NCBI RefSeq assembly: GCF_018139625.1
Contig: NZ_JAGSOH010000003.1
Location: 62,001 to 126,000 of the forward strand
Direction: 5' to 3'
Origin: Actinospica acidithermotolerans
GTDB lineage: Bacteria; Actinomycetota; Actinomycetes; Streptomycetales; Catenulisporaceae
DNA: 64,000 nt
Of this stretch, positions 29,158 to 37,385 are shown one piece after another; position 1 is the stretch's first letter; every line of letters begins with the position of its first letter. The notes under the pieces were generated by a model. That model ran no database searches. It was not told where the DNA came from and saw only the letters and a program-made list of their open reading frames with translations. The translations under genes were made by a program, and so were the position numbers.

Positions 29158-29362
29158 CTCAGTCACGTCGGCGCGGCTCAGGCGGCGGCTCAAACGGCGC
29201 GGCTCAGTCGGCGGCGCGGTTAAGTCGGCGGCTTAGTCGGCGCGGCTCAACCGGCGGCTCGGCCCGCGCTCAGTCGGCGCGGCTCAGTCGGTGGCTCAAT
29301 CGGCGCGGCTCAGGCGGCGGCTCAATTGGCGTAGCTCAGTCGGCGCGGCTCAGTCGGCGGCG
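29158..29362. repeat. Degenerate 12-25-bp tandem array around the histidine kinase stop codon
   Basis: About a dozen variants of CGGCGCGGCTCAGTCGGCGG fill the interval between the hydrolase promoter and the kinase gene. The kinase reading frame ends inside the last unit: its final Ala-Asp-stop is GCCGACTGA, the reverse complement of the repeat core TCAGTCGGC. The array may have grown by slippage from the gene's 3' end. Confidence 0.6.
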
Positions 29363-30791
29363 CGTGGGAGGTCGATCCGGACGAGAGCGCCGCCGCCGGG
29401 TGCCTCGTGGATGGCGATGGACCCGCGGTGCGCGGCGGCGATCTCCTGTGCGATCGCCAGGCCGAGACCGGTGGTGCCGCTTCCGCGCTCGCGGCTCGCG
29501 TCCAGTCGGACGAAGCGGCCGAAGACGCGTTCGCGCTCCTCGGCCGGGATGCCGGGGCCGTCGTCGGCGATCTCGATCCGGACGGTGCCGGGCACGGAGG
29601 TGTCGATGCTGAGCTTTACGCGCTCGCGAGCGTGGCGGACCGCGTTGTCGAGGATGTTGCGCACCATCCGCTCCAGCTGCTCCGGATCGCCGAGCACGTA
29701 GACATCCGACCCCGCCGTGGTCGCCCCGTCAGGCGCCTCGGACGCCGCATCGGACGCCTCGGTCGCCGCATCGGACGCCTCGGACGCGGCATCGGACGCC
29801 TGGGGCGCGGCTTCGCGGAACTCGATGCGAATGCCGGAGGCGGGGGTCGAGACTCGCAGTTCCCGGAGCAGCGGCTCGATCGCGACGCGGCTGGGTGTCT
29901 GCACCAGAAGCCGATCGTCGCTGCGGGCCAGCAGCAGCAACTGCTGCACCAGGCTTTCGAGCCGCTCGGACTGGCGCGCGGCACGCTGCGCGATCTGGAC
30001 CCACGGAGCGCGGTCCGGATGGGCGAGGCCGACTTCGAGGGCGGTGCGGATCGCCGCCAGCGGGGTGCGCAGCTCGTGCGACGCGTCCGCGACGAAGCGG
30101 CGCTGCCGTGTCGCCGAGTCCTCCAGGCGGGCGAGCATGCCGTTCATCGTGCGGGCGAGCTCGCCGATCTCGTCGCGGGCGGCGGGCTCCGGCACGCGCT
30201 GCGAGAGATCGGCCGCGCCGATCTCGGTGACCGTGCGGCGGATCCTCTCCACCGGGCGCAGCGCGCGGCCCACCACGAGCCAGACGGTGGCGCAGGCGAG
30301 CAGCAGGATCACCGGGACCCCCACCAGCAGCAGCCGGCCGAACGTCTCGTTGATCTGGTTGAGCGCGTCCGAGGTCGTCAGCGTGATGATGGTCACCGGG
30401 TGCCCGTCGACGACGGCGCGGGTTCCGGCCACGCGCACCTCGCCGTCGAGATTCGCGCCGGTGCCGGCCTGCCTGACCGGCGCTGCGGCGCCGGCCGGCT
30501 GCGCGTAGAGCGCGGGAAGGCCCGACAGGGCGCGGGTCGCGGCCAGAACGTGCACGCCGTCTCCTTCGAGCACCTGGGCCTGGGCCCTGGCGTCCAGCGG
30601 CGAAGCCGGGAGCGGGCTCGGCCACGCTCCCGACTGGCCGGACTGCTCGATCTGCGCGGCATAGGTGCGCAGCTCGTCGTCGGCGGTCCGGTGCGCCGAA
30701 CCGACCTGGACCAGGTACATGATCACGAGGCCGAGTGCGACGGCGGCCGTGAGCGCCACGCCCGCCACCGCGGTCACCCGGGTGCGTACGG

Positions 30792-30795
<4 letters not shown>
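29350..30795 (-). CDS. Sensor histidine kinase of the MMPL-linked two-component system
   Basis: A 481-residue membrane kinase. One membrane helix (residues about 10-30), an extracytoplasmic domain, a second helix near residue 145, HAMP (RPVERIRRTVTEIGAADLSQ), the HisKA phospho-acceptor in FVADASHELRTPLAAI, and HATPase with N- and G-boxes (NILDNAVRHARE, DDGPGIPAEER, GLGLAIAQEI). A run of Ala-Ser-Asp-Ala-Ala-type repeats (about residues 333-354) is inserted between HisKA and the N-box. The GTG at 30795 overlaps the response regulator stop (GTGA). Confidence 0.9.
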
Positions 30796-31469
<674 letters not shown>

Positions 31470-33629
31470 CTACCCAGCATCCCCGATCGGCAGCGGCTCG
31501 CGCTCGGGGTCCGCGGCGGCGGACGGCGTGTCGGGACCGATCCGCAGCAGCCGGGCCGCCCATCCGGGCATCCACCAGTTGAGCCGGCCGAAGAGCGAGA
31601 CCAAGGCCGGCAGCAGCAGCATCCGCACGACGACGGCGTCGAGCAGGACCCCGGCGGCCAGTCCGGCCGCGATCTGCCGCACCGTGACGTCGTTGGCCGT
31701 CGAGAGCGATGCGAGCGCGAGGAACAGGATCAGCGCGGCGCTGGTGACCAGCCGCCCGGTGCGCGAGACGCCCTCGATGATCCCCGCCGTCGTCGAGCGC
31801 GTGCGCTCATAGCCCTCGCGGACCCGGGAGAGGATGAAGACCTCGTAGTCCATCGACACCCCGAACAGGAACCCGAAGATCAGCACCGGCGCAAGCGTGT
31901 CGATCGCGCCGTAGCTGCGCGCACCCCACAGCGTCTGCATCCCGAAGCCGTGCTGGAAGACGAGCACGAGCAGGCCGTAGGAGGCCGCGACCGAGAGGAC
32001 GTTGAGCAGCACGGCCTTAGCCGGCAGCAGGATCGACTTCAGGCCGCGCGCCAGCAGCAGGAACGTCACGACCGCGACGACCGCGAACAGGATCGGGAAC
32101 GCCCCGTACGTGGAATTGGTCAGATCGATGTTGACCGCGCCCTCGCCTCCGACGAGCACGCCGGAGGGTACCGCGTGCCGAATGTCCGCCAAGGAGCTGC
32201 CGCCCTGGGAGGTGCCGACCTCGAATCGCGGGATCGCGAAGACCATCGCCGATCCCTGATGCTGCCACGCCGATCCGGTCGGGGCGACGGCGCCGTGCAG
32301 GCTCGCCAGCGAGGAGAGCGAGGATGCGACCGCACCCGCGTCCGCGGCATGCGGGACATAGACGGGCACGGTGGTCAACGTGCCCGCGGGGAACCCGTCG
32401 GCCTCGAGCGTGTGCAGCCCGTCGGTGTAGCTGCCGCTTGTGGCCAGGTTGGCTGTGGCCGGCAGCCCGATGTCGATGGTGGCGGCGACGCCGGCCAGCA
32501 CGCCGAGGATGCCCAGGCCCAGCACCGCCGCGAGGATCCGGCGGCGGATGACCAGCTTGGCCCAGCCGGTCCAGAAGCGGCTCGCGGCCCCGGCCGAGCG
32601 GCGGCGCGGCCAGTCGACGCGCGGGCCGATCTTGGACAGCAGCGCCGGCAGCAGGGTGAGCGCGACCAGCGTCGCCGTCGACGGGATGAACAGGCCCGAG
32701 ACGCCGATGCCGCGCACCAGGGAGTTCGGCACCACGATCAGCGCGAACAGGCCGAGTGAGGCGACGAGCCCGCTGAACCACACCGAATGCCCGGCGCGCT
32801 TGACGGCGAGGCGGACCGCGTCCGCGTTCTCGTGTCCCGCTGCGCGTTCCTCGCGCCAGCGGGTGACCACCAGCAGCGAGTAGTCGATGGACAGGCCGAG
32901 GCCGAGCAACGCCACGATGTACTGGACCGCCGGGTTGAGCGGCGAGGAGGACGGCATCGCGTAGGTCAAGCCATAGATGAGCAGCTGCATCGTGAGCACT
33001 GAGATGAGCGCCATGATGATCGGCAACGCCGCCAGCAGCGAGCCGAACACCCAGGCGAGCACGATCAGCGCGCCGAGGGCACCGAAGATCAGCTCGCCCG
33101 TCACCGTCGAGTTGCCGCTGGCGGTGTTCCCGGCCTCCAGCGCGCGGAGACTGGTGCCGGACACGCTCAACGAGGGCGCGGCGGCCTTGGCCGCGTGCGT
33201 GAGCGCGTCGATCTGATCCGTCGTCATGTCGTCGCCGTCGTGCGGTGGATAGGCGAGCACGACGGTGCTGGTGCTTCCCCGCCCCACCAGCGCCTGCGCG
33301 CCGGTCGAGGCGTAGGACACGAGCCGCACTTGCGGATCGGCCTTCTCGATCGCCGCGTCCACCGCGCGCAGCTGGGTCGCGGCGGCCGGGCTGGACACGG
33401 TCTCGCCGGACGGCAGACCGAGTGCGAGGACCCCGGGATCCGAGGTCGCGCCGCCGTAGCCGGCGGCGATCTGGACGTCGGCGGTATAGGCCGCGCTGCT
33501 GAGATGAGTCCCGCTGACCAGCCGACTCGACACAGTCGGCGCTACGACGATGCCGACCACGGTGATCACCAGCCAGGCGGCCAGCACCATCAGCCGGTGC
33601 CTGATCACCCAGGCACTGAGTTTTTCCAC
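31470..33629 (-). CDS. MMPL-family RND transporter
   Basis: A 719-residue polytopic membrane protein. It begins VEKLSAWVIRHRLMVLAAWL with the first membrane helix and has two large extracytoplasmic domains. The family motif GLGLSIDYSLLVVTRWREE occurs in the first half and FGVSMDYEVFILSRVREGYE in the second, each carrying the Asp-Tyr pair used for proton coupling. MMPL proteins export lipids or lipophilic compounds. The GTG start follows GGAGGAGAAG. It is the first gene of the operon with the response regulator and kinase. Confidence 0.92.
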   Translation of the reverse strand: MEKLSAWVIRHRLMVLAAWLVITVVGIVVAPTVSSRLVSGTHLSSAAYTADVQIAAGYGGATSDPGVLALGLPSGETVSSPAAATQLRAVDAAIEKADPQVRLVSYASTGAQALVGRGSTSTVVLAYPPHDGDDMTTDQIDALTHAAKAAAPSLSVSGTSLRALEAGNTASGNSTVTGELIFGALGALIVLAWVFGSLLAALPIIMALISVLTMQLLIYGLTYAMPSSSPLNPAVQYIVALLGLGLSIDYSLLVVTRWREERAAGHENADAVRLAVKRAGHSVWFSGLVASLGLFALIVVPNSLVRGIGVSGLFIPSTATLVALTLLPALLSKIGPRVDWPRRRSAGAASRFWTGWAKLVIRRRILAAVLGLGILGVLAGVAATIDIGLPATANLATSGSYTDGLHTLEADGFPAGTLTTVPVYVPHAADAGAVASSLSSLASLHGAVAPTGSAWQHQGSAMVFAIPRFEVGTSQGGSSLADIRHAVPSGVLVGGEGAVNIDLTNSTYGAFPILFAVVAVVTFLLLARGLKSILLPAKAVLLNVLSVAASYGLLVLVFQHGFGMQTLWGARSYGAIDTLAPVLIFGFLFGVSMDYEVFILSRVREGYERTRSTTAGIIEGVSRTGRLVTSAALILFLALASLSTANDVTVRQIAAGLAAGVLLDAVVVRMLLLPALVSLFGRLNWWMPGWAARLLRIGPDTPSAAADPEREPLPIGDAG

Positions 33630-33663
33630 CTTCTCCTCCTCAAGACGGTTCGGTTCGATCAGG

Positions 33664-33696
33664 AGGCTACGGATCGATGCCTTACACGACGCTTAC
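33664..33696 (-). promoter_or_regulatory. Promoter of the MMPL-regulator-kinase operon with a response-regulator box
   Basis: On the minus strand GTAAGCGTCGTGTAAGG (33696-33680), a direct repeat of GTAAG with an 11-base period, is followed after exactly 10 bases by TAGCCT (33669-33664), a -10 element. The same arrangement precedes the DedA operon. The 11-base direct repeat is typical of OmpR/PhoB-type regulators bound in place of a -35 element. The predicted start site is near 33657. Confidence 0.6.
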
Positions 33697-33758
33697 GTCG
33701 CGTCGGTGCCCGCGTTGCCGGTCTGGGGGCGTCCATTGACGCTCGACTGGACGCCAAA

Positions 33759-33811
33759 GCGTGTGCCGGGCGGGCCGATGGGAAAGATCCATCGGCCCGC
33801 CCGGCACACGC
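33759..33811 (-). terminator. Strong terminator after the second MMPL gene
   Basis: A perfect 23-bp stem (33759-33781 with 33789-33811, arm beginning GCGTGTGCCGGGCGGGCC) has a 7-base loop. On the minus strand it is followed by TTTGG. It lies 21 bases after the stop of the MMPL gene at 33832 and isolates that operon from the next one. A second, 8-bp hairpin follows (33728-33735 with 33748-33755). Confidence 0.8.
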
Positions 33812-33831
33812 CGGAGCAGCTGTCGCGGCGG

Positions 33832-35994
33832 CTACAGGCGAGACCCCGCCTCAACGGGCACCTCGATCGGTGCCGCCGGTCCTTCGATCCGAAGGAGCCT
33901 CGCCAGCGGCTGCGGCATCCACCAGTTCCAGCGGCCCATGGCCGCGACGAATGCGGGGACTATCAGTGTCCGTACGATCAGGGCGTCGATGAGGATGCCG
34001 GCGCCGATGCCGGTCGCGATGATCTCGACGGTGATGTCGGGGGCGGAGCTGAGCGAGGCGAAGGAGATCGCGAGGATCACGGCGGCGCAGGTGACGAGCC
34101 TTCCGGTACGCGCGAGCGAGCCGATCACCGCCTCGTCGGTCGAGCCGGTGCGGTCGTACTCCTCGCGCATGCGGGCCAGGATGAAGACCTCGTAGTCCAT
34201 GGAGATCCCGAAAAGGAATGCGAAGGCGATGATGGGAATCCAGTTCTGGATGGAGCCGGTAGCCGGCACGCCGTAGATCTGGTTCGAGCCGTGGCCGTTC
34301 TGCCAGAACAGCACCAGGAATCCGAAGGACGCGCCGAGCGAGACCACGTTGACGATCACCGCCTTCGCCGCGAGCACGACGGAGCGGAAGCTGCGCACCA
34401 GCAGGAGGAAGGTGAGGATCGACAGGATGGCGAGCAGGAGCGGGAAGTTGCCGTAGACCGCGTGGTTGAAGTCGACGTTCTGCGCGGTGTTCCCGCCGAC
34501 CTCGACGCCCGGCACGCCGGACAGGGCCGAGCGCAGGCGGGCGACGGTCGCGGTCCCGGCCGACGTGTTGCCCTCGTCGGTGGGCACGACGCTGATCAGG
34601 GCGGCGCCGCCCTGGCGGAACGAACTCGTGGCCGGCGCGAGCACGGTGTAAACGCCTTGGGTCCGACTGGCGATGGCGGCGACCTGGTCGGCGGCCGCCT
34701 GTCCCCCGTGGGTGGTGAGCACCTGGATGGGGAAGACGACCGCGCTCGGCACGCCGGTGGCCTCCAGGCCGTGCAGGGTCCGCGCGGGCACGCCGGTGCC
34801 GCCGAGGGAGTCGGCGCGCGCCGGACCGGTGTTGATCGACAGCGCGGGGGCCGCGAGAAGGAGCACGGCGGCGATGCCGACGGCGCCGGCGATCCACTTG
34901 CGCCGCACGATCACGCGGGTCCAGGCCGCCCAGGCGCGGCTGTAGGTGGTCGAGCCGCTGCGCACGAACCGGCGTCTGTCCAGGGTCGGGCCGAGGGCGG
35001 AGAGAATGATCGGCAGCAGCGTGACGGCCGCGGTGATGGCGGAGAGCGGGATGAGCATGCCGCCGATGCCGATGCCCCGCAGGAACTGAGCCGGCATCAC
35101 GACGAGGCAGAGCAGGCCGATCGCGACGGTCAGCCCGCTGAGCATCACGGCTCGTCCGGCGGTGGGCGCGGCGGCGATGATCGCCTCCTGGTTCGAGCGC
35201 CCGGCTTCGCGTTCCTCGCGCCAGCGGGTGACGAGCAGCAGCGAATAGTCCACGGCGATGCCCAGTCCCATGACCGCGACCAGGTACTGCACCAGGAAGT
35301 TGACGCTCATGAGCTGGGTCTGCGCGAACACGAGCAGCAGGCTGACGAGGATCGAGGGGATCGCGATCAGCAGCGGGACGAGCGCGATCGCGGAGCCGAA
35401 GACGAACAGCAGGACGACGAGGGCGCCGATGCCGCCGATGAGCGTCTCGACCAGGATTCCCGGGCCCCCGCCGGCGCTCGCGCCGCCGACGGTCTGGAGT
35501 TGCTCGAATCCGGTGACCGAGACGGACACTCCGTGCGGGGCGGCGGATTCGAGCGCGCCGGGAATCGCCTCCATGACGCCGGAGCCCGCCGCGACGTCGG
35601 GGTTGGGCATGTCGAACAGGGCCCAGGTGGTGCGGCCGTCGGCGGAGACGAGCTTCGGGTCGCCCGTGTTCGCGTAGTCCGCGACAGCCAGATGACCGGC
35701 GCGGTTCGCGGCGGCGAACGTGCGTGCGGCGATGGCCTGTCCGGTCGCCGTGCGCATGTTCTCGTTCGCCGGGAGTGTCAGGACCGCGATCGTCGGCTGC
35801 TCGTTGCCGTCGATACCGAAGGTCTGCATGATGTGCGCGTTCGCGTCGTAGCCGGCGGTCCCGGGAGTGGCGAGGCTGTGCGAGAGCCGGTTGACGGTGG
35901 TGGTCGCCAGTGCGGCCCCGAGGGCCGCCATCAGCAGCCAGGCGAGAACGACCGCGCGCCGATGGTCGAGGCAGTACCGCGTGATCGAGGTCAC
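33832..35994 (-). CDS. MMPL-family RND transporter
   Basis: A 720-residue paralogue of the MMPL protein encoded next door. N-terminal helix SITRYCLDHRRAVVLAWLLM; motifs GLGIAVDYSLLLVTRWREER and FGISMDYEVFILARMREEYD carry the coupling Asp-Tyr pairs. It probably exports a lipid or hydrophobic small molecule. It follows the cytochrome-like gene by 42 bases and ends at a strong terminator. It belongs to the DedA-cytochrome-MMPL operon, whose promoter matches that of the other MMPL operon. Confidence 0.92.
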   Translation of the reverse strand: MTSITRYCLDHRRAVVLAWLLMAALGAALATTTVNRLSHSLATPGTAGYDANAHIMQTFGIDGNEQPTIAVLTLPANENMRTATGQAIAARTFAAANRAGHLAVADYANTGDPKLVSADGRTTWALFDMPNPDVAAGSGVMEAIPGALESAAPHGVSVSVTGFEQLQTVGGASAGGGPGILVETLIGGIGALVVLLFVFGSAIALVPLLIAIPSILVSLLLVFAQTQLMSVNFLVQYLVAVMGLGIAVDYSLLLVTRWREEREAGRSNQEAIIAAAPTAGRAVMLSGLTVAIGLLCLVVMPAQFLRGIGIGGMLIPLSAITAAVTLLPIILSALGPTLDRRRFVRSGSTTYSRAWAAWTRVIVRRKWIAGAVGIAAVLLLAAPALSINTGPARADSLGGTGVPARTLHGLEATGVPSAVVFPIQVLTTHGGQAAADQVAAIASRTQGVYTVLAPATSSFRQGGAALISVVPTDEGNTSAGTATVARLRSALSGVPGVEVGGNTAQNVDFNHAVYGNFPLLLAILSILTFLLLVRSFRSVVLAAKAVIVNVVSLGASFGFLVLFWQNGHGSNQIYGVPATGSIQNWIPIIAFAFLFGISMDYEVFILARMREEYDRTGSTDEAVIGSLARTGRLVTCAAVILAISFASLSSAPDITVEIIATGIGAGILIDALIVRTLIVPAFVAAMGRWNWWMPQPLARLLRIEGPAAPIEVPVEAGSRL

Positions 35995-36036
35995 GTGTCG
36001 GCCTTTCAGGGATCGAAGATATTCGGTGATGAGCGG

Positions 36037-36678
36037 TCAGTGGTGTTTCGGGAACAGCGCGAGGTAGCTTCCGGCATGGCCGGAGAGGGCGATCGCCAGG
36101 AGCGCGCCGAGAACGAGCGCGCCCAGAACGAGCGCGCGCCGTGCCGCCGCGCCGGGCACGCGGACACCTGCGCGGCCGAGCAGGTCGGCCGCGGCCTGGC
36201 CCACGGCGTCGAGGAAGTGCGGCACGACGTGTGCCACGACGGCCACGAGCCACAGGTAGAAGGTCACCTTGTGCACGTCCAGGGCCAGCGTGTGCAGCGA
36301 GTGCGGTCCGTTGTAGGTCAGAATGCCGCTGCCGACGAGGGCTACGGTCAACACGACGATCACGGGACCGAGGACGCGCAGGTACGTGGGCGGGGCGCCG
36401 CGTCGCCGGTAGTCCGGATCTCCGCGGTAGTACTTGGCCATGCGCCAGCCGGTGCTGCCTAGCTTGACGAGCACGGGCGGGGCGAGCAGGTAGCCGATGA
36501 CGACGTGCGCCGTCAGCACGTTGCGCACACCGAGGATCTCGGTGACGATCTCGGCGGCGAACAGCACAAGCAGCAGTACGCCGGTGAGCGCGGTCAGGCG
36601 CGCGTTGCCCTCGGTCGGATCGGCACTGTGCTCCGGCCGGGCCAGTTGTCCGGGACCGCTGTGCGTAGGGGTGGTCAT
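36037..36678 (-). CDS. b-type-cytochrome-like membrane protein
   Basis: A 213-residue protein with about four or five membrane segments. Histidines sit in or next to membrane helices (LTAHVVIGYLLAPPVLVKLG; LDVHKVTFYLWLVAVVAHVV; PHF), resembling the haem ligands of cytochrome b561/ferric-reductase-like proteins. I cannot assign it more precisely. It overlaps the DedA gene by 4 bases (ATGA) and precedes the MMPL gene, so the three are co-transcribed. It could supply electrons or sense redox state. Confidence 0.7.
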   Translation of the reverse strand: MTTPTHSGPGQLARPEHSADPTEGNARLTALTGVLLLVLFAAEIVTEILGVRNVLTAHVVIGYLLAPPVLVKLGSTGWRMAKYYRGDPDYRRRGAPPTYLRVLGPVIVVLTVALVGSGILTYNGPHSLHTLALDVHKVTFYLWLVAVVAHVVPHFLDAVGQAAADLLGRAGVRVPGAAARRALVLGALVLGALLAIALSGHAGSYLALFPKHH

Positions 36679-37346
36679 CGTGTATCCGCCAATTCAGCGA
36701 CGGGAACAGGGGCGGGCGCTTGCTCGTCGGGGTACGCCGCGTCGGCACGCGCCTCGAGGCTGCGCATCGATCGTTTGACCAGGAGGCCGACCACGACGGA
36801 GAGCGCGATCGAGACGCCCACGCCGATGAATGTCAGCGCACTACCGAGCCCGCTCGCCGCGCCGCCGAGGCCGTAGGCACCGAACGCGATCGCGGGGGCC
36901 CACACCAACGCGCCGGCGGCGTTCGCCACGACGAATCCGGGCCGCCTCATCGCGACCATCCCGGCGATGAACGCGGCATACGTGCGTAGGCCGGATATGA
37001 ACCTCGAGTAGAAGACGACCGTGCCGCCGTGGCGGTCGAAGAGGTATCGGCCGACCTTGAGCCTGCGCGGTGTCAGTCCGACGTGGCGTCCGTAGCGTCG
37101 CGCCAACCGCGCTCCGCCGCGTCGGCCGATCCAGTAGCCGATGTTGTCACCGATGACAGCGGCCCCGGCGGCCACGGCCGCGATCACCGCGATGTTCAGC
37201 CGGTGCGTGGAGCCCGCGTAGAGCGCCGCCGCGATCAGGGTGGTCTCCCCCGGCATCGGGACGCCCAGGCTCTCGACCGCGATGAAGACGAATACCGCGA
37301 GATAGCCGTACGACTGGAGCAAGTGGTTGATCAGTGCCAAGCTCAT
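36675..37346 (-). CDS. DedA-family membrane protein
   Basis: A 223-residue membrane protein. Hallmarks are FVFIAVESLGVPMPGETTLI near the N terminus, GDNIGYWIGRRGG and FDRHGGTVVFYSRFISGLRT with the conserved basic and aromatic residues. Recent work links DedA proteins to recycling of lipid carriers and membrane homeostasis. The predicted transcription start (7 bases after the -10 TAGCCT at 37358-37353) falls on or next to the ATG, and no ribosome-binding site is seen, so the mRNA is probably leaderless. Confidence 0.9.
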   Translation of the reverse strand: MSLALINHLLQSYGYLAVFVFIAVESLGVPMPGETTLIAAALYAGSTHRLNIAVIAAVAAGAAVIGDNIGYWIGRRGGARLARRYGRHVGLTPRRLKVGRYLFDRHGGTVVFYSRFISGLRTYAAFIAGMVAMRRPGFVVANAAGALVWAPAIAFGAYGLGGAASGLGSALTFIGVGVSIALSVVVGLLVKRSMRSLEARADAAYPDEQAPAPVPVAELADTR

Positions 37347-37352
37347 ACGGGC

Positions 37353-37385
37353 AGGCTAGGAAATAGTTCCTTTCAGAACGCTTAC
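37353..37385 (-). promoter_or_regulatory. Promoter of the DedA-cytochrome-MMPL operon with a response-regulator box
   Basis: On the minus strand GTAAGCGTTCTGAAAGG (37385-37369) is followed after exactly 10 bases by TAGCCT (37358-37353). It matches the promoter at 33664-33696 at 14 of 17 box positions, with the same spacing and the same -10. It very likely binds the response regulator encoded at 30792-31469. Confidence 0.6.

Follow-up and report, generated by a model that had tools for sequence, protein, structure and literature searches.

The window analyzed here is a 64-kb stretch of the genome of Actinospica acidithermotolerans, whose minus strand carries two operons, arranged DedA-CYT-MMPL2, hairpin, MMPL1-RR-HK. 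The features concerned, in window coordinates, are as follows.

29350..30795, minus strand: HK, a sensor histidine kinase with two TM segments and HAMP, HisKA and HATPase domains; its GTG start overlaps the RR stop
30792..31469, minus strand: RR, an OmpR/PhoB-type response regulator of 225 aa (PF00072 and PF00486), the proposed reader of both boxes
31470..33629, minus strand: MMPL1, an MMPL-family transporter of 719 aa (Pfam PF03176, E 5e-57), first in operon 1
33664..33669, minus strand: TAGCCT, the -10 element for MMPL1-RR-HK, 10 bp past box 1
33680..33696, minus strand: regulator box 1, GTAAGCGTCGTGTAAGG, with half-sites GTAAG (33696-33692) and GTAAG (33685-33681); the same layout occurs at MMPL1 promoters elsewhere
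33759..33811, minus strand: hairpin between MMPL2 and the MMPL1 promoter, with a 23-bp perfect stem, a 7-nt loop and no U tail (z -6.7 against shuffles)
33832..35994, minus strand: MMPL2, an MMPL-family transporter of 720 aa (PF03176, E 4e-73)
36037..36678, minus strand: CYT, a multi-helix membrane protein of 213 aa with invariant His58, His136, His150 and His154, overlapping the DedA stop
36675..37346, minus strand: DedA/VTT-family membrane protein of 223 aa (PF09335, E 2.6e-13), first in operon 2
37353..37358, minus strand: TAGCCT, the -10 element for DedA-CYT-MMPL2, followed after 6 nt by the DedA ATG
37369..37385, minus strand: regulator box 2, GTAAGCGTTCTGAAAGG, with half-sites GTAAG (37385-37381) and GAAAG (37374-37370); also at the DedA promoters of genome G009 and of Actinacidiphila acididurans

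Profile searches confirmed the membership of the transporters and of the DedA protein in the MMPL and DedA/VTT families, as an earlier note on this sequence had assigned them. The VTT domain of the DedA protein scored 51 bits against a gathering score of 33.9, and the protein reached neither of two NCBIfam cut-offs, that of DedA and that of the undecaprenyl-phosphate transporter UptA (52.3 bits vs. 250 for the UptA equivalog). MMPL1 and MMPL2 share their family with mycobacterial MmpL3, MmpL4 and MmpL5, and of the proteins with solved structures MmpL3 matches MMPL2 best in sequence, but the window proteins are of ~720 aa and stayed far below the cut-off of the MmpL3 trehalose monomycolate exporter equivalog (194.8 and 196.3 bits, respectively, vs. 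1400). RR belongs to the OmpR/PhoB family by its PF00072 (8e-31) and PF00486 (4e-22) domains and a conserved DVIxLDVMLPG motif, and the adjoining gene encodes its paired kinase, with HAMP, HisKA and HATPase_c domains. Compared with the NCBIfam equivalogs CseB, MtrA, PhoB, CopR/CzcR-type and RppA, RR reached no curated cut-off, scoring best with TIGR01387 (210.6 bits vs. 279.2; CseB 187 vs. 350; MtrA 182 vs. 300).

No Pfam or NCBIfam family was found for CYT by profile search. Its structure model is weak (pLDDT 61) and gave no fold match with E <0.001. His58, His136, His150 and His154 are invariant among four homologues and lie in helices, which fits a b-type cytochrome, making CYT a putative cytochrome-b-like protein. 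In an Acidimicrobiaceae MAG (L058 6905-9478), the gene of a CYT homologue (51%) immediately precedes a different response regulator-kinase pair (RR 40%), an arrangement that independently connects CYT with two-component signaling.

Promoter layout and predicted transcript ends

The earlier note described one pattern occurring 3.7 kb apart upstream of both operons. Both sites were located on the minus strand, as GTAAGCGTCGTGTAAGG-CATCGATCCG-TAGCCT at 33696-33664 upstream of MMPL1-RR-HK and as GTAAGCGTTCTGAAAGG-AACTATTTCC-TAGCCT at 37385-37353 upstream of DedA-CYT-MMPL2, with the starts of the two boxes 3,689 bp apart and a joint layout of GTAAG-N6-G(T/A)AAG-G-N10-TAGCCT. The near-identity that had also been claimed holds for the box, the length of the spacer and the -10 element, but not for the spacer sequence, in which 3 of the 10 bases are identical.

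At both sites the half-sites are direct repeats one helical turn (11 bp) apart, as in boxes of OmpR/PhoB-type activators, and the N10 between box and TANNNT is constant in 14 aligned promoters, keeping the box at a fixed distance where it overlaps the -35 region. A sigma-70 -35 hexamer, sought 16 to 18 nt from the -10 element, was absent from both promoters (the bases there are GCGTCG, AGCGTC and CGTCGT for box 1 and GCGTTC, AGCGTT and CGTTCT for box 2), and a sigma-70 consensus scan returned no promoter. Assuming a start 7 nt after the -10 element, box 2 begins at -39 and is centered near -28.5, and transcription is predicted to begin at 37346, the A of the DedA ATG, and at 33657 for MMPL1. 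Since the half-sites are one turn apart, the second ends 11 bp before TANNNT and no -35 hexamer is present at 16 to 18 bp, the layout read from these sequences is that of an activator replacing the -35 element.

Proteins bound over the -35 region often repress, and a box covering that region could let the regulator act as a repressor that blocks polymerase there. Neither promoter, however, has a usable -35 hexamer and the interval varies between genomes, so that promoter activity free of an activator is unlikely, and we consider repression very unlikely. Conserved elements at a fixed spacing from the -10 would also suit recognition by an alternative sigma factor, but what is conserved is a pair of half-sites, nearly the same in sequence and offset by 11 bp on a single face of the helix, with a variable interval between them; the second half-site is too near the -10 element for a -35, the -10 itself fits TANNNT, and no sigma-factor gene lies within the two operons, making a sigma-factor promoter highly improbable. 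An activator in place of the -35 element remains our preferred reading of the layout.

For the MMPL1 transcript of the window, a 28-nt leader containing GAGGAGG is predicted. At the DedA promoters of the window (37346-37358) and G009 and at the copper-monooxygenase promoters of genomes G012 and G013, the ATG falls exactly 6 nt after the -10 element (loci outside the window: L060 3791-3805, L061 4459-4473 and L062 1766-1780); in G012 (L061) it begins a frame of 16 codons that overlaps the GTG with which the following gene starts. Because the ATG thus lies at the predicted transcription start, these DedA, G012 and G013 transcripts are probably leaderless, a common class in Streptomyces; in S. 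avermitilis, leaders of <9 nt are found on 22.2% of mRNAs (PMC8780764). At the other end of operon 2, a simple terminator scan missed the hairpin at 33759-33811 for its lack of a U tail, and it was found by folding. It is the probable terminator of operon 2, and ending the transcript there would explain the need for a second promoter.

The box across genomes

Occurrence of the box at many unrelated sites would have counted against the earlier note, but a scan of the whole 7.9-Mb genome returned just the two promoter sites, both on operons of this RR-HK system. GTAAGCGTNNTGNAAGG is present at exactly two positions, and no further site comes within one mismatch of it (iid expectation ~0.02); GWAAG-N6-GWAAG-N11-TANNNT likewise has exactly two matches (expectation ~0.04) with none for the reversed control. 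Allowing two mismatches yielded 24 other genomic sites, compared with 18 for the reversed control, and these are accordingly mostly chance. In a profile built without this genome, the window sites ranked first and second at 34.3 and 31.7 bits, the third site within the window scoring 8.7, and with leave-one-genome-out profiles that also omitted near relatives every true site outranked all other sequence in its locus. Several training sites came from pattern searches, so column conservation in the profile is partly selected and the held-out genomes are the fair test. Together, the genome-wide counts, reversed-pattern controls and leave-one-genome-out profiles rule out a chance repeat.

RR orthologues were sought in 60 relatives and their loci retrieved for box search, and a comparison of twelve bacterial genomes ties the box to the RR-HK pair: in the retrieved loci, every close RR orthologue is accompanied by a box. 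The MMPL1 promoters read GTAAGCGGGGTGTAAGG-N10-TAGCCT in G001, GTAAGCGTTCTGAAAGC-N10-TACCGT in G009 and GTAAGCATCCGGTAAGG-N10-TAGGGT in G011, and the DedA promoter of G009 reads GTAAGCAAGCTGCAAGC-N10-TAGCTT. G009, which belongs to another genus, keeps the twin boxes and the colinear operons of the window with different spacers. This bears on whether the two window promoters are alike merely through recent copying without regulatory meaning, for which their shared locus and orientation and near-identical box and -10 element would speak. Copying leaves unexplained that boxes were conserved while spacers diverged, in another genus as well, and promoter duplication as the sole cause was rejected, as neither the spacers nor the flanks of the window promoters align; such copying is scarcely credible, and even if the box was copied long ago, it is kept by selection.

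The company of the box changes while that of the regulator does not. In G012 and G013 no MMPL gene lies next to RR-HK, and the box is found 3' of HK, before a gene for a copper type II monooxygenase-like lipoprotein. In A. acididurans (RR 82% identical), MMPL1 and DedA-CYT-MMPL2 form a divergent locus, with RR-HK ~48 kb away on that contig, and the box is present on all three promoters (RR, MMPL1 and DedA). Genome G707, from a family outside the order (RR 74% identical), carries GTAAGCGTCCGGAAAGG-TGCCGATCCC-TAGCGT, with a 10-base spacer, before MMPL1-RR-HK, a box that was predicted before the locus was retrieved. Regulators of 53 to 59% identity (L067-L069 and L071) have no adjoining MMPL1-like gene and no such box. 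Pattern scans agree. The tight pattern gave six matches in 14 genomes of the family, all beside RR-HK orthologues (control 0), and a looser one gave 10 across 392 genomes of the order (~3.3 Gb; two for the reversed control), nine of them at MMPL or DedA promoters that belong to the system or to its sister clade and the tenth overlapping a tRNA. The order-wide scan added G276 (MMPL1-RR-HK) and G311 (MMPL1 alone).

Several observations count against the assignment of the box to this regulator: G311 has a box-bearing MMPL1, yet only an unlinked RR of the sister clade (60%); G001 and G276 carry the box on the MMPL1 promoter only; and A. acididurans has degenerate -10 elements (CATCAT behind its RR box and GATCCT behind its DedA box) and a truncated DedA. 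Nevertheless, as the box stays with RR-HK in G012, G013 and A. acididurans despite changed neighbors or location, the comparison indicates that it tracks the regulator and not the transporter. The proposal of the earlier note that the regulator at 30792-31469 controls both units is very probably right, given that the box follows RR-HK across genera and families, and its view of the box as an OmpR-type site whose 11-bp repeats substitute for the -35 element gains strong support from the same cross-genome comparison and from the missing -35 hexamer. The lipid-type exporters, the haem-protein-like membrane protein and the single envelope response of that note would be candidate functions for the two units.

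Decayed copies were also encountered. From the A. acididurans DedA gene (L057 6447-6986) the N-terminal half is missing, as is the -10 element from its promoter, with the regulator box intact. In a relic second copy in G009 (L129 4304-4089, minus strand; L120), an MMPL1 promoter box with a decayed -10 element precedes the first MMPL1 codons, which run on into the beginning of a kinase-like fragment (65% over aa 9-48).

Regulator specificity and related activators

A sister RR clade (G006, G008, G011b and G311; 60-63% identical) has boxes of the same geometry, also before MMPL-RR-HK, with TTAAG as the first half-site. The RR tree separates the two clades with support of 96/98 for the GTAAG clade and 100/99 for the TTAAG clade, and the recognition helix reads HRLRRK in the former and HHLRRK in the latter, a change that may have caused the change of half-site. 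Upstream of the sister-clade MMPL promoters (L063 5780-5880; L065 7890-7965; L066 7920-8010) lie TTGCTATAGCAA palindromes and a second TTAAG-type repeat, which suggest a further regulator.

Boxes of this design are known from other regulators. The Streptomyces OmpR-family response regulators PhoP and AfsQ1 also read direct repeats of 11-nt units, AfsQ1 with GTnAC-n6-GTnAC, the same 5+6 layout as here, and PhoP with units containing GTTCACC (PMC6988585). In contrast, the half-site here is GTAAG/GAAAG (or TTAAG), the regulon is local, and RR has no named match at equivalog level. PmrA binds head-to-tail to half-sites of the CTTAAG/TTTAAG type with 5-bp spacing, i.e., an 11-bp period (PMC3973317), and HP1043 activates from boxes that overlap promoter sequences (PMC8345958). 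Both share the 11-bp period and TAAG-like cores with our boxes, but these regulators come from distant bacteria, are distant in sequence and have other targets, and HP1043 is phosphorylation independent and was modeled in another DNA orientation.

Close in position is AfsR, for which two 11-bp repeats centered at -29.5 replace a good -35 element and the activator dimer carries sigma region 4 (PMC10936776); the center of box 2 is within 1 bp of that of the afs box. SARP sites, too, are 11-bp direct repeats near the -10 element (PMC10936776), and a different activator of OmpR fold, such as a SARP/AfsR-type protein, might therefore read the boxes. Moreover, GTAAGCGATCTGTAAGC-N9-TAGCGT lies upstream of a SARP-NOD (SARP/AfsR-like) gene in G006 and G011 (L116 and L121, ~1500-1640), as either a further target or the SARP's own site, and a SARP could read such sites. 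A SARP, however, is not a phospho-receiver response regulator, and the 3' repeat of SARP sites lies 8 bp from the -10 element (PMC10936776), compared to a gap of 10 to 11 bp here. No SARP was present among the proteins scanned in or beside the two operons, in this genome the box is found only beside RR, the boxes follow the RR-HK genes across genera despite changed neighbors, and the half-site shifts along with the RR clade. We regard a SARP as an unlikely reader of the boxes, with RR the preferred candidate.

Proposed mechanism and significance

A rare box on both operons, its presence with RR-HK across genera, families and altered neighborhoods, and the half-site shift in the sister clade point to the regulator at 30792-31469, which very probably binds and activates both promoters, its own included. 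In the mechanism we infer, the RR-HK pair at 29350-31469 would be an autoregulated two-component system in which the kinase phosphorylates RR, and the phosphorylated regulator would bind GTAAG-N6-G(T/A)AAG as a head-to-tail dimer, one half-site per helical turn. With the box at the -35 position, ending 10 bp before the TANNNT -10 element, the bound dimer may offer sigma region 4 a docking surface instead of a -35 and thus recruit RNA polymerase, activating rather than repressing. MMPL1-RR-HK would then be switched on in a positive feedback through an mRNA whose leader contains a Shine-Dalgarno sequence, and DedA-CYT-MMPL2 through a predicted leaderless mRNA from the DedA ATG, the promoters being twinned because the strong hairpin past MMPL2 would terminate the upstream transcript. 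We put the probability of this explanation as a whole, an autoregulated RR-HK pair activating both operons through a box that replaces the -35, at about 0.86.

The papers searched contained no description of this two-component system, whose local regulon is new but follows a form of bacterial regulation that is well known. A wider and more doubtful proposal is that it represents an undescribed module of several actinobacterial families whose box has moved onto differing envelope genes, most targets other than MMPL1 being leaderless from the first codon, and that it might serve an MMPL-linked export response in which DedA and a redox protein assist the exporters. Its targets do differ, comprising a second MMPL, DedA and a putative membrane cytochrome here and a secreted copper-monooxygenase-like lipoprotein in two relatives.

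These findings turn a motif noticed by eye into the assignment of a box to a regulator, in a bacterial group with little regulatory data. They also provide a compact natural test case for activator-dependent promoters without a -35 element and for leaderless output. By connecting MMPL transporters to a DedA-family protein and to a membrane protein with conserved histidines, the box offers a concrete lead to the partners of these exporters.
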